From assembly GCA_008015595.1 (NCBI GenBank), contig SSFW01000024.1, positions 1-37,185 on the forward strand: DNA of 37,185 nucleotides. The letters are read 5' to 3'. The notes beneath the pieces were generated by a model. The model ran no database searches and was not told where the DNA came from. It saw only the letters and a list, made by a program, of their open reading frames with translations. Both the position numbers and the translations under genes were made by a program. The DNA comes from Nitrosomonas sp. (GTDB lineage Bacteria > Pseudomonadota > Gammaproteobacteria > Burkholderiales > Nitrosomonadaceae). Shown here piece by piece: positions 1-16,868 of this stretch (position 1 is the first letter of the stretch; every line of letters begins with the position of its first letter).

Positions 1-2384
1 AGACTATACAGCGGTAATTGCGGCTTATCGGGACGATCTCCGAACCACTCGCTCGGGCTTACTTTTCCCGTTTTATAATCGATGATGATTTGGCGACCAT
101 CGGCTAATGTATCGATACGATCGATTTTCAATTTGATTTTGAGTTCAGCTAACTCAATCTCGACGGTTTGCTCCCGACTCGTCACAGCAAACGGACTACG
201 TGTCTTTTCCAATGCTAACCACTTGTCAATTTGTGCGCTGATTCGTGCTATCTCAATCGCGCGGAAGCGATTCGTGAGCGTGTATGGATAATCAACCCTA
301 ATCTCATCGATGGCTAGCATTACTTGTGTTCGTATCAATTCTGCAAGCTGAGCCTCTGACAGAGCCATTAATTGGTGATGTGAATTGAGCGCTCCCCAGA
401 TTTTTTCCATCGCTCGATGCACTAGATTGCCGCGCTCCATTGCGTTTAACCCTATTTGCACTTTTCCTAACGGAGACGCATGGAGGCGTAATTCGGCAAA
501 AGCACGAAATGGGCAAGCAGCCTGTAATTCAAAGATACGACTTCCCCCTCTGACCAGTGTCGTTTCCACAGGAAGAGTCGTTTCTTGCTGAATAACTTCA
601 CTTTGACTTTGGGCATAAATGATATCTCGCCATAAAGGAACATTACTCAACGCTAGATCTTGAGCATCTATGGCAGTAAACCCTTTGATAAGAGGGCTAG
701 GGCGTAATATGCTTTCTTCGTTGAATTGAGGGTAACTCACGATTACCTCGTTCGCACTGCCTAAAATACGTTGCATTTGCTGCGTCGCAACCATTAACTC
801 ACGTTGCCCACTGGAATGCGGTATTTGCTGTTTGCGCTGTATCGGAATGGGAATAAACGGGTTAGGATCAAAATGGTTTAGCCATGCGCTGTCATGTAAT
901 CCTGCCACCCAAAGAAAATCAAATTCAATACCTTGCGCCTCTAATGGCCCCAGAATTTGAATGGCTTGATTGTTTACCTGGGATTGGAAGATTCGCTGGC
1001 TCGCCATTTGACTCAAGAGACTAATCGCATCAATTGCAGTCATTTCACCCATGACCCAGTCTAATGAAGCAAATTCAGCGAGTAATTCTCTCCAGGCGCC
1101 AATTAATTGGAATGTCTCATGAGACAATGAATAATCCTCAAGCCAGCCCATCCTTTTGAGAAAGCGATCAATACGCGATGACCACTGCCCGGGCCTTGCA
1201 TTGTTATAATTCACTGTTACCCATTTTTTTGTCGATTGCAACTGCTGCAAAAAAATGGGGCAAGCTGTATTACTATCGAATCGCACGCAAAAATCAATCA
1301 ATCCATCAACGGTAAATATAGGTTCACCAATTTCTCGTAGCTTGGCATCCAATAGTGCTCGCGCACTCGACTCTTGCGCCCATCCTGCGATAAGCGGAGA
1401 ACGAAGTAAATGGCTGACCGTTTCAAAACGTAACGTTGTGCCAAAAAAATTAAGTAAATTCAGCGCAGTCGTAATCGGTGAAAACTGGTTAAGCGCTTTT
1501 CCCAAGGAAAAATTATAAGGGGGTGTTAAATTTTGGCTTTCAGGGTGAAAAATCTCTGGTATTAAAATTTCATCCAGCGTATGCTGAATCGCATCGCGTT
1601 GGTTTTGTAATTGTGGTGCAACAATACCAATTCGCGTTCCAGGATTATCTTCTTGTTTTTTGCGTACCCAGCGCGCCATCCATTCCCTTTCTTCATGGAC
1701 ATCTTTGCAAGCAATTCGAAAAACTTGATTCGATTTAGTTTGACGCTCTACCCACTCAATCCGACAACCTAAATTTTCTAGGGTCGTTAAAAACTGCACC
1801 TGCAGTGGATTTAATTCATCGAAACCTGTCAATATAAGATAAAACGGTGATATTAATTTCTGAGATTTGAAAAGTGGCTGAAGTTTGTTCGCAATACTGA
1901 CAACCGAAACAAAATTCTTTTCCTTACAGATAGATTGGAAACGTAATAACCATTTCCAAAACAATTGACTGTCCTGGTTATAGCTAAACGCTGATTCATT
2001 TTGAGGAATACACCATGATCCCACCAATTGCCATGCATTTTGAACCAGTTGAATAGTGCTATGAGTGGGTTTAACCGATAAATCTGCTTTGATGATTTCT
2101 TGCCAAATTACATACTCTTGCCAAGGAGAAAGTAGTTGTTCATATTTAGGCAATAGTCCTGAAATAAGTGACTCTTCCCATAGCATTAACAACCAACTAT
2201 TCCAAGGTATGATGAACGGTGATTTCCAGACACTAAACTGCTGAGATATAAAAATTTGTTCACTCAGTCCACGTAAAACACCTGTTAAGCGTTGATTACC
2301 TGTCAGAACGATAGTGTTCTGATTTGAATCTTTTAATAACTCATTGATATTGATTTGCTTTGGATTGAGCCAATCCTGTTTCAT
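1..2384 (-). CDS. PD-(D/E)XK nuclease-family probable DNA repair protein (C-terminus cut by window edge)
   Basis: An open frame of 794 codons runs from an ATG at 2382-2384 to the left edge without a stop. The protein resembles the AddB/RecB-like 'probable DNA repair protein' family of betaproteobacteria (usually about 850-900 residues), so roughly the last tenth is missing. Visible features are an inactive-helicase-like N-terminal half, the string ILGPLEAQGIEFDFLWVAG, which resembles the last helicase motif, then ELQAACPFRAFAELRL at about residue 640, and the nuclease signature KIDRID...IIIDYKTGK (acidic residues near 755 and 769, Lys near 771) followed by QLPLY. The Cys in the ACPF motif matches the position of the first iron-sulfur ligand in AddB-type nucleases; any others would lie beyond the edge. 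It probably processes DNA ends, usually next to a UvrD/RecB-like helicase gene, which would lie to the left. The family call is by recognition of motifs; the exact role is inferred. Confidence 0.8.
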   Translation of the reverse strand, partial: MKQDWLNPKQININELLKDSNQNTIVLTGNQRLTGVLRGLSEQIFISQQFSVWKSPFIIPWNSWLLMLWEESLISGLLPKYEQLLSPWQEYVIWQEIIKADLSVKPTHSTIQLVQNAWQLVGSWCIPQNESAFSYNQDSQLFWKWLLRFQSICKEKNFVSVVSIANKLQPLFKSQKLISPFYLILTGFDELNPLQVQFLTTLENLGCRIEWVERQTKSNQVFRIACKDVHEEREWMARWVRKKQEDNPGTRIGIVAPQLQNQRDAIQHTLDEILIPEIFHPESQNLTPPYNFSLGKALNQFSPITTALNLLNFFGTTLRFETVSHLLRSPLIAGWAQESSARALLDAKLREIGEPIFTVDGLIDFCVRFDSNTACPIFLQQLQSTKKWVTVNYNNARPGQWSSRIDRFLKRMGWLEDYSLSHETFQLIGAWRELLAEFASLDWVMGEMTAIDAISLLSQMASQRIFQSQVNNQAIQILGPLEAQGIEFDFLWVAGLHDSAWLNHFDPNPFIPIPIQRKQQIPHSSGQRELMVATQQMQRILGSANEVIVSYPQFNEESILRPSPLIKGFTAIDAQDLALSNVPLWRDIIYAQSQSEVIQQETTLPVETTLVRGGSRIFELQAACPFRAFAELRLHASPLGKVQIGLNAMERGNLVHRAMEKIWGALNSHHQLMALSEAQLAELIRTQVMLAIDEIRVDYPYTLTNRFRAIEIARISAQIDKWLALEKTRSPFAVTSREQTVEIELAELKIKLKIDRIDTLADGRQIIIDYKTGKVSPSEWFGDRPDKPQLPLYS

Positions 2385-2540
2385 AGTCGGTCTGAATAGA
2401 GATCGTAATTAATCAATAGTAGAATGCTTACTCGATTCAGAGCAAATGAGAAATTTTCATGTTGCTAGCTGACTGTTGGAAATGAAATAGGTAAAATTGC
2501 GCGTTATGCTTATTTTTTGTAATACAAATCGGGAGAAGGA

Positions 2541-2996
2541 ATGAATAACAATTTTATCAAAACAGTACTTTTTATTTTCATCGTTTCTTGGTCTAATTTA
2601 GCAATTTCGGAGCAAGCTGAGTCCGCTGTGCAGGTGGCAGAAACTCAAGAAAAGGCGGATGATTCAGAGATTTTTGGCCAGGGCTGGAAATTAGTCCGTT
2701 CTCCTGAAATGGGAAATTCCGGTAAATTTGTCCATATGGTATTAGTCGATCTGGACAAAGAAATGGATAAAACGGTTTATAGTGCTGCGATTAACCGCTT
2801 ATGTGGAAAAGCAACCGATTTTTGCCGAATTCGATTCTGGACACAAGAGCGCTTTATTCCTGAAAAAGTAACGCCCACTCCTGAACAGCTCAAAGCTCAA
2901 AAGGCAGACTATCTCTTTAATCCTACTGCAGGTGTAAAGAAAACGACTTGGTCGTGCAAAGTGGACCACGATAAAAGTCATTGCGTAAATTATTGA
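2541..2996 (+). CDS. Secreted hypothetical protein with four cysteines
   Basis: A 151-residue protein with an excellent ribosome binding site (GGGAGAAGG just before the ATG). Residues 1-23 form a typical signal peptide, with likely cleavage after AIS. The mature part has four cysteines (C88, C95, C139, C148), two of them in CGKATDFCRIRFW, and the last two flank a lysine/aspartate/histidine-rich tail, so two disulfides in the periplasm are plausible. I do not recognise a named domain. It stands alone between the divergent DNA-repair gene on its left and a convergent gene on its right. The function is unknown; the gene itself is well supported by its start signal and signal peptide. Confidence 0.75.
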   Translation: MNNNFIKTVLFIFIVSWSNLAISEQAESAVQVAETQEKADDSEIFGQGWKLVRSPEMGNSGKFVHMVLVDLDKEMDKTVYSAAINRLCGKATDFCRIRFWTQERFIPEKVTPTPEQLKAQKADYLFNPTAGVKKTTWSCKVDHDKSHCVNY

Positions 2997-3009
2997 TCGT
3001 AACGAAATA

Positions 3010-3047
3010 CCCTCTTTCTTTTATTTAATTTTATCTGAGAAAGAGGG
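3010..3047. terminator. Hairpin between convergent genes, possible bidirectional terminator
   Basis: A perfect 10-bp inverted repeat (CCCTCTTTCT at 3010-3019, AGAAAGAGGG at 3038-3047) with an 18-nt loop lies just after the stop of the secreted-protein gene and before the end of the opposing gene. Neither strand has a clear T-run after the stem, so intrinsic termination is uncertain; the convergent position is the main support. Confidence 0.4.
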
Positions 3048-3120
3048 GGAAACTCCCTCGACCAGATTATTAAATCACATCTAACCTAGTCCAACAAATT
3101 CAGGATTAACAGGTTATCAC

Positions 3121-3564
3121 TCACATTTGGCGACTCTTGATAAAGTGATGATTGGGTAAAGTGTTTTGTTCGTAAGAATTCAGCCACTCATTACCAAGCC
3201 GATTGACAATCAATTCTGACAAAGTTAATCCCTCATTTTTTGCAAGTTCTGAAAGTATTTCCCAAGCATTATGGGTTAGGCTCACAGTTTTAAGTTGAGG
3301 CCTATATTTCTGCTTTTCTATTTGGTCCCTTGCAATACTGATGGCATTCTTAAGTTGTGCCCACTGAGTTTCATGCAACCACTTTTCACACCATGCATTT
3401 AAATCATTAGGATTGGCTTTGGCATCCTGATACTCACGTTCAGCGACGATACCTTGAGACGCATCTTCGCCTAGCCAGTATAAACCTGATGAGATTTGTT
3501 TATCGAGGAATTCAACTGCAGCATTCTGGTCTTGCTGTCTAATTACATATTTTTGTTTGTTCAT
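3121..3564 (-). CDS. Hypothetical protein with ribbon-helix-helix-like C-terminal segment
   Basis: A 147-residue cytoplasmic protein. The N-terminal half is rich in Gln, Glu and Trp and matches nothing I recognise. Residues about 94-128 read as a short beta strand (KTVSLTH) followed by two helices (AWEILSELAKNEGLTLSELI), which is the pattern of ribbon-helix-helix DNA-binding folds such as the MatP C-terminus. This is an inference from pattern only. A weak purine-rich site (GAGAGA) precedes the ATG. No partner gene such as a toxin is adjacent, so an antitoxin role has no support here. It could be a DNA-binding regulator or nucleoid factor. Confidence 0.6.
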   Translation of the reverse strand: MNKQKYVIRQQDQNAAVEFLDKQISSGLYWLGEDASQGIVAEREYQDAKANPNDLNAWCEKWLHETQWAQLKNAISIARDQIEKQKYRPQLKTVSLTHNAWEILSELAKNEGLTLSELIVNRLGNEWLNSYEQNTLPNHHFIKSRQM

Positions 3565-3874
3565 TTTTATTATCTCTCATTAGTTTCATAAAACTACTAA
3601 GATTTTTTATGAGTAGATAATACAAGCCAATTCATTATTCAGGCAAGTCTTTATTCAGATTTACGCGCTAAACACTTGAAACAATATTACTATCGTGTTT
3701 AAGCTGCTAGTTTATACAGTCTTATTTGAAGTAATCCTGGAGTTAAAAATTGAAATCGTAATCAGCCGACTTTGAGGTGCCTACTGTGTTACCTTTTATC
3801 ACCCAAATCCAATCACAGTTTTTTCCTAAATACATTGCAACGCTTAAATTCATACATCTTACAAATTATCTTTT
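3565..3874. other. 310-nt divergent intergenic region
   Basis: This stretch separates the start of the ribbon-helix-helix-like gene (minus) from the start of the RNA methyltransferase gene (plus), so it should hold both promoters. I found no confident -35/-10 pair, no RNA gene and no convincing small ORF. Close to the minus-strand start there is a short dyad (TTAGT and ACTAA arms, about 3579-3601) that could be an operator, but it is too short to claim. Confidence 0.4.
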
Positions 3875-4663
3875 ATGCAGATCATCACTTCCCGTGAACA
3901 CACTTTATTCAAACAGCTAATAAAGCTACTGCGTTCGACTCAACAACGAAAGCGAGAAAAACTTACCATTTTGGATGGAATACATCTTGTTCAAACTTAC
4001 TATCAGGTTTATGGATCACCATTCAAGCTCATTATCAGTGAATCTGCTTGTCAACAACCTGAAACAGAATCTTTTCTAAAGCAATTTAACCAATCATCTG
4101 AGCCTAATCGCTCTGTTGTTTTGAGCGATACCTTATTCAAACATATATCCCCTGTTGTAACTCCCTCAGGGATTATGGCTCTTATTACAGTACCGATAGC
4201 TAGCCACACTCATTCCAAGCAATTCTGTGTATTACTTGATGCAATACAAGATCCAGGAAACTTAGGATCAATACTGCGTTCTGCAGCAAGCGCTAGTGTA
4301 AATGCGGTTTATTTATCAAAAACTTGTGCAGACGCCTGGTCTCCCAAAACATTACGTGCGGCAATGGGGGCTCATTTCTTCTTAACCATTCATGAGAATG
4401 CTGAGTTAGTTCAGATAGCGGGCAATTTTCAAGGAAAAGTATTTACCACTTCAGCGTGTTCTGAACATAGCTTGTTCCAAACAAAACTTACTGAACCGAT
4501 TGCTTTTGTATTTGGTAATGAAGGATCTGGTATTTCAGGAGAATTAATGGATTGCGTTAGTAAATCACTCGCTATCCCGATGAATAAGAACTGTGAATCT
4601 TTGAATGTTGCTGCCGCTGCTGCTATATGCTTTTTTGAGAAACTTCGCCAAAACTTAAATTGA
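3875..4663 (+). CDS. RNA 2'-O-methyltransferase, TrmH/SpoU (SPOUT) family
   Basis: A 262-residue protein with the layout of TrmH-family methyltransferases: an N-terminal substrate-binding domain (about 1-105) and a C-terminal trefoil-knot SPOUT domain. All three family motifs are visible: DPGNLGSILRSAASA (motif 1, with the catalytic Arg), FVFGNEGSGIS (motif 2) and IPMNKNCESLNVAAAAAI (motif 3, the S-adenosylmethionine-binding loop). It would transfer a methyl group to a ribose 2'-OH in rRNA or tRNA; which nucleotide cannot be read from sequence. No clear Shine-Dalgarno precedes the ATG, but residues 1-20 look like a normal start for the family. It is monocistronic as far as can be seen. Confidence 0.88.
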   Translation: MQIITSREHTLFKQLIKLLRSTQQRKREKLTILDGIHLVQTYYQVYGSPFKLIISESACQQPETESFLKQFNQSSEPNRSVVLSDTLFKHISPVVTPSGIMALITVPIASHTHSKQFCVLLDAIQDPGNLGSILRSAASASVNAVYLSKTCADAWSPKTLRAAMGAHFFLTIHENAELVQIAGNFQGKVFTTSACSEHSLFQTKLTEPIAFVFGNEGSGISGELMDCVSKSLAIPMNKNCESLNVAAAAAICFFEKLRQNLN

Positions 4664-4687
4664 TGCACAACTATTTGATATTACAAC

Positions 4688-4715
4688 CACTCATACTCAT
4701 TACTGAGTATGAGTG
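4688..4715. terminator. Perfect 12-bp hairpin between convergent genes
   Basis: The arms CACTCATACTCA (4688-4699) and TGAGTATGAGTG (4704-4715) pair perfectly around a 4-nt TTAC loop. It sits 24 nt after the methyltransferase stop and about 30 nt beyond the stop of the opposing 35-residue protein gene, so it could end both transcripts. There is no T-run on either strand, so it could also act as an mRNA stabiliser. Confidence 0.5.
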
Positions 4716-4745
4716 TAAACCAATTGAACTAACGTAACGCCACTA

Positions 4746-4853
4746 TTAGACTGCAGTTACAAAATAAACAACTGCACCAATAACGATCAACCCAATCGTA
4801 GAAATAGCTACTACTTTGAACGTACTAGCTTCTGTCGCTCTATTATTTTCCAT
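4746..4853 (-). CDS. 35-residue single-pass membrane protein (unlisted small gene)
   Basis: A 36-codon reading frame with a near-ideal ribosome binding site (AAGGAGA, 8-9 nt before the ATG). The product has a polar N-terminus of about 13 residues (MENNRATEASTFK) and one hydrophobic helix, VVAISTIGLIVIGAVVYFVT, ending two residues before the stop. It has its own upstream sigma70-like promoter and a perfect hairpin downstream, so it looks like an independent transcription unit rather than a chance ORF. I do not recognise the family. By analogy to other tiny membrane proteins it may be an accessory subunit or regulator of a membrane complex, but that is only inference. Confidence 0.7.
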   Translation of the reverse strand: MENNRATEASTFKVVAISTIGLIVIGAVVYFVTAV

Positions 4854-4923
4854 AACACTTATCTCCTTATGAAAATCTATTCTTTAGTTTTATAAACCCA
4901 TAACCACAATAGGGCTGGCTAGG

Positions 4924-4952
4924 ATTCTACGCATATTTTCTAGTAATGGCAA
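4924..4952 (-). promoter_or_regulatory. Sigma70-like promoter of the 35-residue protein gene
   Basis: On the minus strand TTGCCA (-35, 4947-4952) and TAGAAT (-10, 4924-4929) are separated by exactly 17 nt, each matching the consensus at five of six positions. The predicted transcript start near 4917 gives a leader of about 64 nt before the small ORF. Confidence 0.6.
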
Positions 4953-4977
4953 TATTCTACTACTGAGAAATTTATTC

Positions 4978-5718
4978 TTAATTCATGAAACCAGTTCTTA
5001 ATGCACACGCCCAGTCCATAAAGTGGCGTGATTCAGCCAGTTTTACCATAGCTTGATAATCATAAGGAACCGATATTAAGGAAGATATCCATTGATTTCC
5101 TACTCTTTCTAGTAACGCATAATGTGCATCAGGAGTACCTGTTTCAATCGTATGAAGAAACGGTATCTCATCACTATAAGCAGGTAATCCAACACTCCCT
5201 GGGTTAACAATTAGTAATTCACCCAAAATTTTTACCGAACGTGGCTGATGCGTATGCCCACATAAAATCAATTTTTCTTTTCTATCTTTTCCTAGCCGTT
5301 CTGTAATTTCATTTGCAGTCGCTAGGCGCACTCCACTCGACACAACAGTCTCCAAAAGGTAACTATTACTACTCTCAGGTGTACCGTGGCAAAGTAAAAT
5401 ATCCTGACTCAAGTACAGTGTATTGGGTAAACTCTTCAGCCAGTCCAATTCTTTAGCTGAAAGCTGAGAATAGGCTAATTCATCTACAACGCTGCATTGA
5501 TCAGTCCCATGCACTAATATCTGATGATCATGATTACCTGCAAGCTGTATCCAATTCTGGGCCATCAGAAAATGTGCTGTTTCTAGTGGTAATAAAGGAC
5601 CAGATAAGCTATCGCCAAGGTTAATTACCTTATCAATACCTATACGATTGAAATGTGAAACGACTGCTTCTAGTGCGGGTAAATTGCCGTGAATATCTGA
5701 AACAACCGCAATCTTCAT
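4978..5718 (-). CDS. Calcineurin-like metallophosphoesterase (YfcE/MJ0936-type)
   Basis: A 246-residue protein with the full metal-binding set of the superfamily: SDIHGN (D8, H10), LGDS (D36), GNHD (N62, H63), CHGTP (H111) and CGHTHQP (H155, H157). The NPGSVGLP string after these motifs is typical of the small YfcE/MJ0936-like phosphodiesterases. It should hydrolyse phosphoester bonds in a two-metal site in the cytoplasm; the natural substrate cannot be told. The ATG start gives SDIHGN at the usual distance from the N-terminus, although there is no strong Shine-Dalgarno. It follows the Tim44-like gene on the same strand after a 132-nt gap with a hairpin, so it is probably transcribed separately. 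Confidence 0.87.
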   Translation of the reverse strand: MKIAVVSDIHGNLPALEAVVSHFNRIGIDKVINLGDSLSGPLLPLETAHFLMAQNWIQLAGNHDHQILVHGTDQCSVVDELAYSQLSAKELDWLKSLPNTLYLSQDILLCHGTPESSNSYLLETVVSSGVRLATANEITERLGKDRKEKLILCGHTHQPRSVKILGELLIVNPGSVGLPAYSDEIPFLHTIETGTPDAHYALLERVGNQWISSLISVPYDYQAMVKLAESRHFMDWACALRTGFMN

Positions 5719-5785
5719 TAGATAACAACTACATAGAAAAGAAATTTATCTTTGCTAGAATCACGAGAAAATAGAAGTACAATCG

Positions 5786-5828
5786 AATTACCCTGCCTCG
5801 CCTTTCAAAAAAATGAAACAGGGTAATT
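5786..5828 (-). terminator. Hairpin after the Tim44-like gene
   Basis: A perfect 10-bp outer stem (AATTACCCTG at 5786-5795, CAGGGTAATT at 5819-5828) encloses a second 5-bp stem (5803-5807 with 5814-5818) and a 7-nt bulge. It begins 22 nt after the stop of the Tim44-like gene. No T-run follows, so termination is likely but not certain. Confidence 0.4.
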
Positions 5829-5850
5829 GATTTATCGATTCCTTACTACA

Positions 5851-6723
5851 TTAATCAGGTTGTTGAATACCGGCGAGTAACCAAGGTGCGTTCTTCTCCT
5901 TAAGGCTTTTCTGTACATGCCAGATTTCATCAAAAGGTTCTGGTAATGCATCAGGCGCTTCTCTTAATTGACCGTTAAAACGGACGCTCGCAATGGCCAT
6001 ATCACTTGATGTCGTAACATCCAACAAGTCCGCATTAATAAAGATCACTTCCGTTTTTTGTGGGTGGTCACCACTTTCTTGTATTTGCTTATTCAATGCT
6101 TCAAATAATTCCGGAGTTGTATATTCACGAATAGCGTCAACATCACCCGCATCATTTGCTGCTTGTAAATTGATAAATGATAATTTTGCATTTTTTAAGA
6201 ACGGCTCTACCTGAAAATCTGGTGGTATCGAATTAGTTGTAGCATTACCGTCATAAGCCTTATGGGTAGAGCTTGACGATGTTGCTGCAGATGGACCTCC
6301 AGGAAATACTTGATCGGCTTGCGCTGCGCCAGCTGCTGAATACTGCATAGGACGCGATAGCTGCTCAGATTTTGGTTTACGTAGCATGCGTACAATAAAG
6401 AATATAACTGCCATTAATACAACCAGCATAAGAATATCAGCCATATTAATGCCATCAAATGCACCACCCATAAATAATGCAGCGAGTAGCCCACCAGCGG
6501 CTAAACCTGCTAATGCCCCACCCCACTTACTTCCACCAGCCGCTGGATTAGAAGCAGGTGCTGCTGATTGTGACTGAGCAGGTTTAGGCGTTGCTTGCTG
6601 ATTAATTGAATCGCGCTGCTTTCCAATACTTTTACTACCGCCTAAGCGCTTCGCTTCAGCATCAACTGGCAATAAAGTAAAAGTAAGCACCGCTAATGTA
6701 AATAAAGTAAGTATTTTCTTCAT
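5851..6723 (-). CDS. Tim44-like domain membrane protein
   Basis: Starting at the ATG at 6721-6723 gives 290 residues. This start is preferred over an in-frame ATG 18 nt upstream because GGAGAAAAAA directly precedes it and because it begins a clean signal-like sequence (MKKILTLFTLAVLTFTLLP). A low-complexity Gln/Ala/Pro/Ser stretch (about 35-65) leads to a glycine/alanine-rich and then strongly hydrophobic segment (about 67-110), probably one or two membrane spans. The C-terminal 130 residues have the alpha/beta Tim44/MBA1-like fold (starting near PPDFQVEPFLKNAKLSFINL), ending with WHVQKSLKEKNAPWLLAGIQQPD. In bacteria such proteins are envelope-associated and of unknown function; a link to protein translocation is only by homology to the mitochondrial protein. 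Confidence 0.85.
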   Translation of the reverse strand: MKKILTLFTLAVLTFTLLPVDAEAKRLGGSKSIGKQRDSINQQATPKPAQSQSAAPASNPAAGGSKWGGALAGLAAGGLLAALFMGGAFDGINMADILMLVVLMAVIFFIVRMLRKPKSEQLSRPMQYSAAGAAQADQVFPGGPSAATSSSSTHKAYDGNATTNSIPPDFQVEPFLKNAKLSFINLQAANDAGDVDAIREYTTPELFEALNKQIQESGDHPQKTEVIFINADLLDVTTSSDMAIASVRFNGQLREAPDALPEPFDEIWHVQKSLKEKNAPWLLAGIQQPD

Positions 6724-6754
6724 TTTTTTCTCCATAAACACTGTTGAGTTAGAA

Positions 6755-6763
6755 AGTATAACA
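6755..6763 (-). promoter_or_regulatory. Extended -10 promoter candidate for the Tim44-like gene
   Basis: On the minus strand TGTTATACT reads as an extended -10 element (TG, one base, TATACT) about 32 nt before the chosen start codon. No good -35 lies 16-18 nt upstream, as is common for extended -10 promoters. Confidence 0.35.
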
Positions 6764-6831
6764 TCATCGATTTATTCTTGTTTCTCATTGGAAATTTTTT
6801 GGGAATGCTAGTAGCAATTAGAATTTTAATG

Positions 6832-6849
6832 TTGGTTATTTCTAACCAA
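6832..6849. promoter_or_regulatory. Dyad TTGGTTA-N4-TAACCAA, possible operator
   Basis: A perfect 7-bp inverted repeat with a 4-nt spacer lies in the 203-nt region between the divergent Tim44-like and short-chain dehydrogenase genes. Its size and symmetry suit a dimeric repressor or activator site; no regulator gene is adjacent. It could also be a chance hairpin. Confidence 0.3.
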
Positions 6850-6926
6850 TTTATGAAATACTCTTAAAATAACTCAATAAAACACTAAACTCTAATAGCA
6901 AAAAAACAAAGGGATTGATTTTATTT

Positions 6927-7625
6927 ATGGCAACTACTTTAATCACTGGAAGTAACCGTGGCATAGGATTTGAATTTGCACGGCAATATGCGCAGAGCGG
7001 ATGGAATGTCATCGCGTGTTGCCGTCAACCCGAAAATGCTTCTAATCTTAGGCAACTTGCCAATAGCTTTCCTGATCTCGTAACGATATATCCGCTGGAT
7101 GTCGCTGATCACAATCAAATTACAAACTTATCCAACAATTTAAGAAATACTTCCATTGATCTGCTTATCAATAATGCAGGTATCTACCCACCATCTGACG
7201 ATGGTGGCTTTGGTAAGATTGATTACGAAGCATGGCACAAAGCATTTCAAATCAATACTATGGCACCATTAAGAATAGCAGAAGCATTCCTTGCACAAAT
7301 AAGTAATAGTCAATTAAAAATCATAGCGATCATCACGAGTAAAATGGGCAGTATTGATGATAATAAAAGGGGAGGAAGTTATATTTACCGATCAAGCAAA
7401 GCAGCTGTCAATATGGTTGGTAAAAGTCTTTCAGTTGACTTAAAACTACAGGGAATTACTACCGTGATTCTGCATCCTGGGTGGGTTAAAACTGATATGG
7501 GTGGCCCAGATGCATTAATTAGCCCTGAACAAAGTGTACTCGGTATGCAGCGTATATTATCGAATCTAAAATTATCCGACTCTGGAAAATTTTTTGCCTA
7601 TGATGGGAAAATTATTCCTTGGTAA
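6927..7625 (+). CDS. Short-chain dehydrogenase/reductase (SDR) family oxidoreductase
   Basis: The ATG at 6927 gives 232 residues; a TTG 12 nt upstream would add four residues but sits right next to the only Shine-Dalgarno-like string (AAAGGGA), so ATG is preferred. Classical SDR features are all present: the nucleotide-binding TGSNRGIG (residues 7-14), NNAG (82-85), active-site N110, S138 and the YxxxK pair Y154/K158, followed by HPGWVKTDMGG after the catalytic helix, typical of the csgA/sniffer-like branch. The basic residue after the glycine motif and R33 suggest NADP(H) preference. The substrate is unknown. It converges with the SGNH protein gene downstream. Confidence 0.87.
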   Translation: MATTLITGSNRGIGFEFARQYAQSGWNVIACCRQPENASNLRQLANSFPDLVTIYPLDVADHNQITNLSNNLRNTSIDLLINNAGIYPPSDDGGFGKIDYEAWHKAFQINTMAPLRIAEAFLAQISNSQLKIIAIITSKMGSIDDNKRGGSYIYRSSKAAVNMVGKSLSVDLKLQGITTVILHPGWVKTDMGGPDALISPEQSVLGMQRILSNLKLSDSGKFFAYDGKIIPW

Positions 7626-7719
7626 AGACTTGAGGAAACACTTATAGGCTCAACAATTCTGTACAAGGCACAACCGGTTAAAGTTAGTTTGGAATACTTT
7701 GCAAAATTGTATACATAAT

Positions 7720-8976
7720 TTACTGTGCTGCCCTTGCTAATATCGCAGCATCAGTAAATAACTCGGGGTAATTACTCTCACACATTAAACGTTGTTGAAT
7801 AATACGATTTTGATTCAATAGAAAACTATTCTGATCAAGTAATCTTATCCCAAATGATGTCTGTGAATGATTCATACTCATAACTTTTGAGAGAATCGTT
7901 TCATTGCTTCTCAGAATTTCTTCTAAAATAATATCCCCAAGTTCTTTCTTGAAATGACCTGCTTCCCAGTACCATTGAGTAGTAGATAAGAGATCGCCTA
8001 TTGGCGGAATCCGCTCACAGTGATAGAGACTATAACCACTGTAATCGTATAATTCTATCTGCGCTGAGTATTGATTCATATCAATAAGCTCATTGACTAC
8101 TAAAGACTTCCATTGATTAAATAATGGCCATAAATTTGTCACTTCAAAAAGTGCTAGTATCTGGGCATGATAGGGGTAAATCACAAGAATAATTTTGCTA
8201 TTATTCTCCTCTACTAGATTAAATATAGCCTGTAAGTAATTCAAACTCATTGGCGACACTGAGCCTTGAGCTTTTTTAAGATAAGTTCTAACATTTTCTT
8301 GTGCTCTTTGTTGAAATAATTTGTAATACCCTTCAGTTCGTACAATTGGTTTATATTCATTAAGTGGATTAAACCCATGAAAAGTAACGATTGCAGCTTC
8401 TTCATTGTTTTGAATAGCAAGTGTACGAAAGGCATCCTTAACGGAAGCTAGAGAAAACATGCTATCAAAACGCCAGAACCAACTTTCAATTTTTCTTTGT
8501 TGATCGATTAAATACTGAGAAGGATCAATTGATGCATTGACTTCCTGCTGAGACGGTAAATCAATAAAATCTAAAAAATCAAGGCCAAGAAAAATCAACC
8601 CCGGATTAATACCATTTTTTGTCAAATAAAGAAGCTGTTGATATACAGTTTCAATTCCTATCCCCGGTATACTTAAATTATAGGCTGATAGCCCTTTTTG
8701 ATTAAACACTGGTGCATCAGGATCAAATCCGATCTCAGCGCGAGAATTACCTAAAATAAGTACATCAGGCTTCAGTCGCTTTACTTGGGATAATTTAATC
8801 TCGTTCTGATAGCGCTCTAATGTGGGTTTAATAATATTAAATCCACGATATTGAACAATGCCATACTGGCGATAAGGATCAACGATAAGTACAAAAATTA
8901 CTACCGCTAGGCTACCAGCAATCGTAATTACTAATAGCCAGCAAAGATATCGCTGCGAATTCTGTAATTCTTCCAT
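7720..8976 (-). CDS. SGNH/AlgX-like polysaccharide O-acetylation partner, membrane anchored
   Basis: A 418-residue protein with one N-terminal membrane anchor (about residues 11-33) and a large, presumably periplasmic, domain. GNSRAEIGFDP (S78 as likely nucleophile) resembles SGNH block I, and WYWEAGHFKKELGD near residues 335-348 resembles the D/ExxH block, with Glu338 and His341. The gene starts 8 nt after the stop of the MBOAT acyltransferase gene, so the two are almost certainly co-transcribed and coupled. In AlgI/AlgX-type systems the MBOAT protein passes an acyl group across the membrane and the SGNH protein transfers it to a glycan. That role is inferred from the pairing; the substrate is unknown. 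Confidence 0.78.
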   Translation of the reverse strand: MEELQNSQRYLCWLLVITIAGSLAVVIFVLIVDPYRQYGIVQYRGFNIIKPTLERYQNEIKLSQVKRLKPDVLILGNSRAEIGFDPDAPVFNQKGLSAYNLSIPGIGIETVYQQLLYLTKNGINPGLIFLGLDFLDFIDLPSQQEVNASIDPSQYLIDQQRKIESWFWRFDSMFSLASVKDAFRTLAIQNNEEAAIVTFHGFNPLNEYKPIVRTEGYYKLFQQRAQENVRTYLKKAQGSVSPMSLNYLQAIFNLVEENNSKIILVIYPYHAQILALFEVTNLWPLFNQWKSLVVNELIDMNQYSAQIELYDYSGYSLYHCERIPPIGDLLSTTQWYWEAGHFKKELGDIILEEILRSNETILSKVMSMNHSQTSFGIRLLDQNSFLLNQNRIIQQRLMCESNYPELFTDAAILARAAQ

Positions 8977-8984
8977 ACTCTGAA

Positions 8985-10538
8985 TTAAAACTGAAAATAC
9001 AAAAAATCATTCGGGCGATTTAATGACAATAGGCTTATCACGGTAATTACCCCGATCCATACTGACCACCAGCGTGATGGTTGCCAAACTAAATAACCTA
9101 GCAAATTTCGAGTTGGACTTTTAATTTTCGAGTTTTGAAAATCTAGAGCAGGTTTAAAGTTTTGCATAATTTCTTGTGTGTTAGGGAAAAAGAAAGCAAT
9201 AAGTGCAGCTAAAGCAATCCAAGACCAAGTCTCAATAAAAATTTTCCCCCCTCCTAGATAAAATGTTATGCCTAATTCTTGAATGAATGGGGCCAATATT
9301 GTAAGTCGACTACCAATTGCATCAGGTAGTTCTATACCAAAAACTCCAAACATCCCATAAATAATTTCTAATGCATCTTCCAGCTCTGCTGAACGAAAAA
9401 AAACCCAGGCAATGCAAACTGACATAAATGTTAGACCAGTAGCAGCGATCTGCCATAACATTGTTGTTACTGGAAATTGTATTTTTTGTGAAAGCTTGAC
9501 CCATCCATGGTGAATAATTAGATAAGCTCCATGAAGTCCACCCCATATAACAAAACTCCACCAAGCGCCATGCCATAAACCACCTAATAACATAACAGTC
9601 ATTAAATTTCGATACTGCTTGAATAACCCTACCCTGTTACCACCAAGTGGAATATATAGATAATCTCTAAGAAAACGTGACAGAGTCATGTGCCACCTTC
9701 GCCAAAATTCGCTAATATTTCTTGATTTATAGGGCGAATTAAAATTTAGTGGAAGATTCACTCCAAATAGCCGTGATAAACCAATTGCCATATCTGAATA
9801 AGCTGAGAAATCAAAATAGAGTTGGAATGTATAAGCTAATACACCTCCCCATGCTATTAGTAATGATGGGGAAGAGTCCGCTTCATTAAATAAATTATTT
9901 GCGTAGGGAGCAAGGTTATCTGCAATCAAAACTTTCTTTGCCAAACCAATACAAAATATTGTTATTCCTACTGCAAAATCAGATTGAGAAAAACGATATA
10001 TTCTCGAGTCAGCAAATTGAGGCATCATTTCTTTGTGATGCAATACCGGTCCAGCAATAAGATGAGGAAAATAAGTAACAAATAGTAAATAATGAATGAA
10101 GCGATATTCTTTAACTTTTCCCTCATATGTATCCACGAGGAATGCAATCTGAGTAAATGTATAAAAAGAAATGCCAATAGGCAAGATAATGCTCAAAGTT
10201 TGAACATTTGCGCTACTAATGTAATTAACTGTAGAAATAAAAAAATCTGCGTACTTAAAATACCCGAGTAATAACAGATTTGAGATAATCGCAAAAATAA
10301 GCCAAAGCTTCCGGAATGGTTTATCTGAGAATGCAATCTTGAGTCCCATCCAAAAATTAAAGCAGATTGAACTTAGAAGAAGTGGTATGTAGTGATAGTC
10401 CCAATACCCATAAAAAACTATTGAAGCAGATGCTAACCACCCAGCTGATAAAGTATAACTATAGCGGCTCAGCCAAAAGAAACCCACAACGGTAATGGGC
10501 AAATAAAAAAATATAAAAGTAAAAGAATTAAATAGCAT
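8985..10538 (-). CDS. MBOAT-family O-acyltransferase (AlgI-like)
   Basis: A 517-residue multi-spanning inner-membrane protein. It begins MLFNSFTFIFFYLP, the usual AlgI-type start, and carries the family core NISEFWRRWHMTLSRFLRDY (about 274-293), YIPLGGNRVG and LLGGLWHGAWWSFVIWGGLHG, where H323 matches the catalytic His of AlgI and H336 is the second conserved His. It should move acetyl (or another acyl) groups from the cytoplasm to an extracytoplasmic glycan through the SGNH partner encoded 8 nt downstream. No strong Shine-Dalgarno precedes the ATG; a short in-frame leader ORF does, 18 nt upstream. No alginate genes are nearby, so the target polysaccharide is another one. Confidence 0.88.
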   Translation of the reverse strand: MLFNSFTFIFFYLPITVVGFFWLSRYSYTLSAGWLASASIVFYGYWDYHYIPLLLSSICFNFWMGLKIAFSDKPFRKLWLIFAIISNLLLLGYFKYADFFISTVNYISSANVQTLSIILPIGISFYTFTQIAFLVDTYEGKVKEYRFIHYLLFVTYFPHLIAGPVLHHKEMMPQFADSRIYRFSQSDFAVGITIFCIGLAKKVLIADNLAPYANNLFNEADSSPSLLIAWGGVLAYTFQLYFDFSAYSDMAIGLSRLFGVNLPLNFNSPYKSRNISEFWRRWHMTLSRFLRDYLYIPLGGNRVGLFKQYRNLMTVMLLGGLWHGAWWSFVIWGGLHGAYLIIHHGWVKLSQKIQFPVTTMLWQIAATGLTFMSVCIAWVFFRSAELEDALEIIYGMFGVFGIELPDAIGSRLTILAPFIQELGITFYLGGGKIFIETWSWIALAALIAFFFPNTQEIMQNFKPALDFQNSKIKSPTRNLLGYLVWQPSRWWSVWIGVITVISLLSLNRPNDFLYFQF

Positions 10539-10553
10539 TAAGAATAATTGGCC

Positions 10554-10586
10554 TTATTTTTCCACAAACATCATTCCATTCTTCAT
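10554..10586 (-). other. Possible 10-residue leader ORF before the MBOAT gene
   Basis: ATG at 10584-10586 preceded by TTGGAGAAAA opens a 10-codon frame (MKNGMMFVEK) that ends in TAA 15 nt before the MBOAT start and is in the same frame. The ribosome site is better than that of the MBOAT gene itself. It may be a leader peptide that feeds ribosomes to the main gene, or chance. Confidence 0.25.
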
Positions 10587-10726
10587 TTTTCTCCAATCAA
10601 CTGTTCTATTAAAGATAACCTATCCTATTCCAAGCTAATTTAGAAAGAATTAATAACCATCATACTGCTTCTAGCAATATTTCAATTATTAAAAAATGAA
10701 CAAAATTGGCGCTTTATAAAATCAAT

Positions 10727-11659
10727 TTACTGTTGAAAAATAGAACCTCTTGGATGGTGGCGCGCATGTAATTGTTTCAGACGCTCACGAGCAATATGGG
10801 TATAGATTTGAGTTGTAGAAATATCAGCATGCCCAAGTAGCAGTTGAACAACTCTTAAATCAGCACCGTGATTCAGGAGATGGGTTGCAAAAGCATGCCG
10901 TAACTGATGTGGAGAAAGTGATTTAGTAATGCCGGTATGCTGAGCGTAGCGTTTAATTAAATACCAAAATGCTTGGCGAGTCATCGCATCACCTCGATTG
11001 GTAATAAAAACTTTATCAGTTATCTTATTCTTTCCTGCCAATAAGCTGCTACGAACCTCGGTTATATAGCGATTAACCCAATAAAGTGCTTCTTCACCGA
11101 ACGGTATCAATCGTTCTTTATTACCCTTACCTAGTACTTTTACAACGCCCATGTCAACTCTAACCTGCAGTAATTGAAGTGTCACCAACTCTGAAACACG
11201 TAAACCCGTGGCATAGAGCAGCTCTAGCATAGCTCGATCGCGAATTCCTTGTGATTTTAAAATATCAGGTGCACTCAAAAGTATTTCTACTTCAGTTTCA
11301 GATAAACTTACTGGAAGCAATCGCGGTAGTTTTGGTCGATCAATATTTAAACTAGGATCGATCTTGATTTTTCGCTGACGTAATAAAAACTGATAAAACC
11401 GTTTTATCGTCGATAATTCTCGATTTGCAGAACTTGCTTTTATTAAAATTGCGACTCGATCGGCGAGAAAAGCAAGTAAATCTGAGTGGTCAAGTTCAGC
11501 TATCGATAGCTGTTTGCTCTTATTGTTAAGTTTCCATAACGAAAGTTGTTTTAGATCACTGCGGTAACTTGAGAGTGTATTCCTCGATAATCCATCTTCT
11601 AACCATAATGAATCAATGAATTCATCAATGAGCTTAATATCGCCATCACATAGCATCAT
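10727..11659 (-). CDS. xerD: Tyrosine recombinase XerD
   Basis: A 310-residue site-specific recombinase with an N-terminal SAM-like core-binding domain (about 8-95) and a C-terminal catalytic domain. All catalytic residues are in place: R154 (TGLRVSEL), K178 (GKGNKER), H251 and R254 (HQLRHAFATH), H277 (LLGHADIS) and nucleophile Y286 (TQIYTH). With XerC it resolves chromosome dimers at dif near the division septum. Length and the C-terminus fit housekeeping XerD rather than a phage or integron integrase. Its start overlaps the stop of ogt by 4 nt (ATGA), so the two are translationally coupled. Confidence 0.92.
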   Translation of the reverse strand: MMLCDGDIKLIDEFIDSLWLEDGLSRNTLSSYRSDLKQLSLWKLNNKSKQLSIAELDHSDLLAFLADRVAILIKASSANRELSTIKRFYQFLLRQRKIKIDPSLNIDRPKLPRLLPVSLSETEVEILLSAPDILKSQGIRDRAMLELLYATGLRVSELVTLQLLQVRVDMGVVKVLGKGNKERLIPFGEEALYWVNRYITEVRSSLLAGKNKITDKVFITNRGDAMTRQAFWYLIKRYAQHTGITKSLSPHQLRHAFATHLLNHGADLRVVQLLLGHADISTTQIYTHIARERLKQLHARHHPRGSIFQQ

Positions 11660-15422: not shown

Positions 15423-16334
15423 CTACATCGAGGTCTGAATGGCTTGAAGGCTAAGACCCATAAGTGCTTGAGGAAAAACACCAGCAATTAAAACTGCCAA
15501 CCCATTTACACTGATCAGTATTTTTGCATCAAAAGAAGGTAATACAGGTGTGTTGTGTTCAGGTGCTTCAAAATACATAAGCTTAATAATACGCAAGTAA
15601 TAGAACGCACCGATCAGCGATAACACAACTGCTGTTATGGCTAGCCATACGAAACCAGCATTTACAACCGCCTGCAGCACGGATAGTTTTGCGTAGAAAC
15701 CAATCATAGGAGGAATACCTGCCATCGATAACATTAGAAACATCATGATCAATGCCAACCACGGGTTTCTCTGATTAAGACCTTTATAATCACTAAGATT
15801 CTCTGCCTCAAAACCTTCCCGGGATAAGATCATGATTATTCCAAATGCACCCAACGTCATGAGTACATAAGCGGTAACGTAGAACATAGCCGAGCTATAG
15901 CCATTCTGGTCTACCGCGATAAAACCGAGTAAAACAAATCCCATATGCGAAATCGTAGAATAAGCAAGCATACGCTTAATATTCGTTTGCATAATCGCAA
16001 CGATATTACCAATTGCCATCGAAGCAACCGCTAATATAATTAGCATACCTTGCCAATCGGCTGCTAAAGCACCAAGACCATCAACCAATAATCGAATAGT
16101 AAACCCAAATGCAGCTAATTTTGGAGCAGAACCCAGAAATAGTGTTACTGCAGTAGGAGACCCTTGATAAACATCAGGTGCCCACATATGAAATGGTGCA
16201 GCACTCAATTTAAAAGCCAGACCCGCTACAATAAAAACCAACCCGATTATCAATACTTGATGATCAATCGTTTTTGTTTGGATTGCTTCAGCAATTTTGC
16301 TCGTATGTAATTCACCGGTTGCACCGTATATCAT
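15423..16334 (-). CDS. nuoN: NuoN C-terminal part (second ORF of split nuoN)
   Basis: A 303-residue ORF starting at the ATG immediately after the internal stop. It carries the C-terminal two thirds of Nuo[12 protein letters not shown] with its conserved Lys and His, the [16 protein letters not shown] helix region and about nine membrane helices. It has no ribosome site of its own except the coding sequence of the first part, so expression would rely on ribosomes that have just ended at the TAA or on read-through. Confidence 0.7.
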
Positions 16335-16868
16335 TTACATTCCATACAACAGAAAACCAGACGCCAACGCACCTAAAACAAAAAACTTCATGGCAGCTTC
16401 TGTTGCTACTGCAGAATCCCGCTGGAGAGCAACCATCGCATATAAAGAAAGCGATAACAACTCAAGGCCTAGATAAAAAACCATAAAGTGACTTGCAGAA
16501 ATCATAACCATCATTCCTAAGGTAGCGAATAAAGAGAGGTTAAAAAACTCCCCTTTGAACATACCTCTTACACGAATATAGTTACGAGAATAAATCAGAA
16601 CCACAGCTACGGTCAGATATACCATGAGTTTCAGACTATCTGACATTAGATCATCGACAAACATCCCTGAGAAAGTGTATTGGACTTCACTTGATAAAGT
16701 CGCGAAAGTAATCACTGCACAACCTGCCAAACTAAGCAGCGAGAGGATATAAGTAAAATACCTTTGATCATTATCCAAGAAAAGATCCACTAGCATAACG
16801 ATACAAATCATTATGAGCAGAAAGATTTCTGGGTATGCTGGTGAAAAATCAGGTGACAAAAACGCCAT
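16335..16868 (-). CDS. nuoN: NuoN N-terminal part (first ORF of split nuoN)
   Basis: A 177-residue ORF with the first five or so membrane helices of NuoN, including E136 in [12 protein letters not shown] and K161 in [15 protein letters not shown], the charged pair expected at the start of the proton channel. It ends in the TAA directly before the ATG of the second ORF. It begins 51 nt after the nuoM stop, so it is the last nuo cistron. Alone it could not form the antiporter fold. Confidence 0.7.

Follow-up and report, generated by a model that had tools for sequence, protein, structure and literature searches.

The nuoN locus

The window, that is the whole analysed stretch of 37,185 nt, is the entire contig SSFW01000024.1 of Nitrosomonas sp. 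(GCA_008015595.1). The host genome is a draft of 2.55 Mb in 176 contigs with a completeness of 89.6%. Judging by NuoN, its nearest named relatives belong to the communis/nitrosa group of Nitrosomonas (approximately 77-79% identity). The nuoN gene lies on the minus strand and consists of 177 codons, TAA, 303 codons and a terminal TAA. The features of the locus are as follows:

16868 to 15423, minus strand: nuoN, one frame but for codon 178
16338..16868, minus strand: first piece of nuoN, 177 codons, an ORF of its own owing to the internal stop
16335..16337, minus strand: internal TAA at codon 178, a TCN serine codon in the aligned relatives
16332..16334, minus strand: ATG immediately after the stop, by alignment the inherited Met179 codon and no new start
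15423..16334, minus strand: second piece of nuoN, 303 codons and the terminal TAA
16920..30076, minus strand: the thirteen remaining nuo genes (nuoM to nuoA), all of them uninterrupted frames

The earlier note on this DNA had described nuoN as split by a single in-frame TAA (16337-16335) followed at once by ATG, with thirteen other nuo genes intact, and both observations hold. The genes nuoM, nuoL, nuoK, nuoJ, nuoI, nuoH, nuoG and htpG, as well as both halves of nuoN, align over nearly their full length to the Nm132 locus (L033) and contain no internal stops. The genes nuoA-F were considered as single open frames from the list of ORFs only. The names of nuoM, nuoK and nuoJ follow from NCBIfam matches; the remaining nuo names are putative assignments from the sequences.

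A DNA search of the host draft yielded one copy of nuoN, with no second intact copy elsewhere in it. The protein search of the same genome with NuoN produced three matches; among the matches listed, besides nuoN itself, is the place of nuoM (31% identity). TAA terminates 16 of the 31 window ORFs taken as genes and is therefore a normal stop in this genome.

State of the two NuoN pieces

The two pieces correspond to consecutive parts of one protein. The first matches positions 3-178 of the NCBIfam NuoN model NF004442 (E 3.9e-65) and the second matches positions 180-481 (E 1.1e-148), so that together they cover the whole model (483 positions) with one position missing between them; the halves are in one frame and complete, as had been claimed. 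The cut-off of this model is 523 bits. Taken separately the pieces score 220.7 and 496.3, and hence no single full-length protein passes. The second piece alone exceeds the cut-off of TIGR01770 (338.2 vs 332.6). The Pfam family PF00361 is matched at positions 1-53 by the first piece and 55-293 by the second. With a long piece of the gene on either side of the stop, both in the same frame, a chance pattern of ORFs can be dismissed.

The residues Glu136, Lys220, Lys250 and Lys394, which we take to be the counterparts of the channel residues of the E. coli proton path, are all retained in the window NuoN. This agrees with the earlier note, which placed conserved channel residues on each side of the stop. 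We further counted substitutions at conserved columns, defined as those with a conservation of 97% or more among the other relatives. The first piece has one substitution at 72 such columns (as many or more in 36 of 80 relatives), and the second has one at 126 (as many or more in 36 of 79). By this measure neither half departs from an ordinary NuoN under constraint. No decay beyond the stop was seen in nuoN, either at the conserved columns or in the alignment to relatives, and therefore the lesion is either very recent or an error.

The nonsynonymous distances (dN) to Nm132 are 0.170 and 0.151 for the two nuoN pieces, 0.100 for nuoM, 0.094 for nuoL, 0.144 for nuoJ and 0.212 for nuoG. Between the relatives L033 and L036 they are 0.110 and 0.144 for the nuoN pieces, 0.113 for nuoM and 0.138 for nuoL. 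On the window lineage nuoN, and in particular its first piece, thus changes somewhat faster than nuoM or nuoL, which could reflect mild relaxation and would speak against a gene that is ordinary apart from the stop; synonymous sites are saturated, and therefore no ratio is claimed and the rate signal is weak. The count at conserved columns gives 7 changes in 324 for nuoG (as many or more in 6 of 71 relatives) and 4 in 266 for nuoM (as many or more in 9 of 74). On these alignments both deviate more than nuoN and are on the high side. The genes nuoL, nuoK, nuoJ and nuoI are ordinary in this respect.

Codon 178 and the following methionine in relatives

The stop was compared with the best 80 of 326 nuoN loci from the species collection. 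Codon 178 encodes serine in all 79 relatives aligned at this position (TCC in 27, TCA in 24, TCG in 20, TCT in 8). The eightieth relative (L098) has a broken frame and is unaligned here, as its best aligned piece begins past codon 178. The next codon in the 79 relatives is ATG in 69 cases, TTG in six, and CTG and TTA in two each. On this alignment, the window ATG at 16334-16332 is the inherited codon for Met179. Because it is inherited, its presence after the stop is uninformative. Indeed, a stop at Ser178 would precede ATG in most relatives, and therefore the adjacency is no evidence of a designed restart. This is the comparison with close relatives that the earlier note had proposed, and the split proved to be unshared.

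Broken nuoN frames in other genomes

NuoN was matched in 121 of 125 genomes of the family and in 84 of 85 genomes of the genus; no match passed the threshold in G003, G115, G132 or G148. A stop at codon 178 occurs in none of the other matched family genomes, and the two-piece arrangement is likewise absent from all of them. Rows flagged as containing a stop were those of the window genome, G016, G099, G062 and G114. Recurrent stops in G099 (TAA), G062 (TAG) and G114 (TAG) were rejected: residues 1-478 are free of stops on the alignment, and the flags were therefore taken as the genes' own ends. The genes of G004 and G013 are short since their contigs end, and were not considered broken. Neither was G109, which is divergent, with the first 35 residues unmatched and no stop.

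What remains is a broken nuoN frame in three of the 121 matched genomes, each with a different lesion. The isolate H5_AOB4 (G016, locus L098) has TGA at codon 171, soon followed by a frameshift. In the same region (819-10879) nuoM has two stops, and nuoL and nuoG have changes of frame. Considered as an independent break near codon 178, this case was set aside: since nuoM, nuoL and nuoG are also damaged, we read it as an error-rich assembly, although this is not proven. In G142 (L177, G142:C93:41300-43200) there is a frameshift near residue 270.

Background of interrupted frames in the draft

In 261,587 bases, comprising the window and 20 other contigs, 53 long same-frame ORF pairs were found, nuoN included. 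The survey was one of stops. Ten of the 52 pairs besides nuoN were subjected to family searches with their pieces, part of them at E up to 1e-20. None of these 10 pairs was clearly one gene cut by a stop; the pairs at L127, L132 and L137 are ambiguous. In four of the 10 the two sides belong to different families, namely ribF/ileS, aat/arginyltransferase, secD/secF and efflux adaptor/permease. Each of the secD and secF pieces covers its own model in full, and both also match the fused SecDF models. In five pairs only one of the two sides matches a family, and in one (L137) neither does. Thus the sample contains no flood of nonsense errors, and one isolated consensus error would fit it without difficulty.

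At L132 (146-1459), two long same-frame ORFs are separated by TAG, the first having no Pfam family and the second matching GNAT; this may be one broken gene or two genes. The loci L132, L124 and L135 (contigs C90, C20 and C120) have a G+C content of 0.51-0.55, compared with 0.38 in the window, and these contigs are possibly mobile or foreign.

Origin of the stop codon

The most probable explanation, at roughly 85%, is a nonsense lesion of an ordinary kind, confined to the codon of one invariant serine in single-copy nuoN and due to either a consensus error or a recent mutation. The stop itself, the serine of the aligned relatives, the single copy in the host draft and the absence of further decay in the gene are observed; the cause of the TAA and its effect on complex I are inferred. 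On this reading, the invariant Ser178 codon would have come to read TAA in an otherwise ordinary single-copy gene. The chances that the TAA is a consensus error of the draft genome seem about even. A real and very recent nonsense mutation, of the strain or of a part of the sampled population, is a serious if less probable candidate. Both gradings are judgements, not calculations. Should the stop be real, the product would be a fragment of 177 residues that breaks off within predicted helix 6; the second piece would be made little or not at all, and complex I would be impaired.

An error or a young mutation agrees with the nuoN frames broken in other drafts and with the fragmentation of the host draft. 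On the other hand, the assembly is not visibly error-rich in the 10 searched ORF pairs, which argues against an error, and the nuoN of G016 is interrupted only seven codons from the window stop. In ammonia oxidisers, NADH is expected to be supplied by reverse electron flow through complex I. A null nuoN should harm this supply; a long-lived null is therefore unlikely, which favours an error, or else a variant that is recent or carried by a minority. The earlier note had offered three readings, and the one that fits best is its recent mutation or base-calling error, while its reinitiated two-piece NuoN gained no specific support.

Alternative explanations

One possibility is a functional split, in which translation terminates at TAA and reinitiates at the adjoining ATG, and the pieces of 177 and 303 residues assemble in the membrane. 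The stop and the start adjoin without a gap, which is within reinitiation distances, and the reinitiation that the earlier note suggested for TAA-ATG is possible in terms of mechanism; what it took from the adjacency is explained by Met179, the restart codon being the inherited methionine. Both pieces are constrained and the four charged residues named above are retained. However, a very young lesion would leave the same constraint, the split is seen in no other matched genome, and an invariant serine would be lost through the stop. All in all, we consider such a split improbable.

Ribosome binding was estimated by pairing the 20 bases upstream of an ATG with the 16S tail. The internal ATG has a GGA upstream, ending 6 bases away, and the predicted binding of -3.3 kcal/mol is similar to that of the nuoM start (-3.1); the own start of nuoN has -5.6. 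However, this energy is ordinary, being equalled or exceeded at 70 of the 186 internal ATGs in the nuo genes and htpG, with the site counted among the 70.

The position of the break is also of relevance. In the model of NuoN from L033 (mean pLDDT 67), residue 178 falls inside helix 153-184 and not in a loop, the next long helix being 203-228; this is a moderate-confidence model of a relative's protein. From the ends of the match, codon 178 corresponds approximately to residue 175 of chain 3rko_N, which we take to be the E. coli chain. On the model, a chain break at 178 is conceivable, yet no obvious linker is present there. If it were real and functional, a proton-pumping subunit of complex I would tolerate a chain break inside a helix. 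The more specific proposal is that the lineage makes a two-chain NuoN by termination-reinitiation at Ser178/Met179, assembled near the end of helix 6, as a first step of subunit fission; it is harder still to credit. No case of a split antiporter-type subunit was found among the literature matches listed. The passage on premature stops in PMC6232127 says that none arose in colonised participants, and it does not concern nuoN.

Complex I might instead be in the process of being lost in the window lineage, or run without NuoN. Besides the interruption of nuoN itself, this would agree with a dN to Nm132 that is larger for nuoG and nuoN than for the other nuo genes compared, and with the raised counts at conserved columns of nuoG (7/324) and nuoM (4/266). 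However, the thirteen other nuo genes are open frames, and nuoL, nuoK, nuoJ, nuoI and nuoN itself are ordinary at these columns. As to a substitute, a search for an NQR2/RnfD protein gave no match in the host genome, of which about 10% may be missing, while 4 of 14 control genomes were positive. Loss of complex I, or its operation without NuoN, is very unlikely.

The least likely alternative is that TAA is read through or suppressed to give full-length NuoN. In its favour, the two pieces share a frame and are both constrained. Against it, ARAGORN assigns sense anticodons to 38 of the 39 tRNA hits from Rfam, and TAA is the natural stop of the 16 window genes counted above. The remaining hit, the weakest and at a contig end, was not called by ARAGORN. 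No TAA-reading anticodon occurs among the 38 called tRNAs, a set from which a suppressor could be missing in the draft; tRNA-Thr, tRNA-Trp and tRNA-Ile are absent from the hits, and the set is therefore incomplete. Both tRNA-Ser genes seen have the TGA anticodon.

Contig C156 (5.7 kb; L170, 37-1164) contains eleven tRNA genes in approximately 1.1 kb, namely Leu, Glu, Tyr, Lys, Arg, Pro, Ala, Ser, Asp, Met and Arg. This cluster could be the tRNA array of a mobile element.

Comparison with known systems

The NuoN proteins of Nm132, Nm90 and Nm33 share the length and domain of the window NuoN, with 77.5-78.7% identity over the whole protein; the difference from the aligned relatives is TAA in place of their common serine.

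Passages of PMC10666635 and PMC6728339 describe very short stop-start distances that permit reinitiation in E. coli and Haloferax. The termination-reinitiation pairs treated there have stop and start directly adjacent, as at the window TAA-ATG. However, the cases in these passages are gene pairs, mostly with short overlaps, whereas in the window the start codon lies within a single gene, where it encodes a conserved methionine. The nuoN case is chiefly of value as a warning: if a stop in a draft genome happens to precede a conserved methionine, its ATG may give a false impression of design.

The closest parallels to the nonsense lesion are the drafts G016 and G142 of the same family, in which the nuoN frame is also broken. 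The window differs from them in having a lone TAA at codon 178, whereas G016 combines TGA at 171 with a frameshift and damage to nuoM, nuoL and nuoG, and G142 has its frameshift near residue 270.
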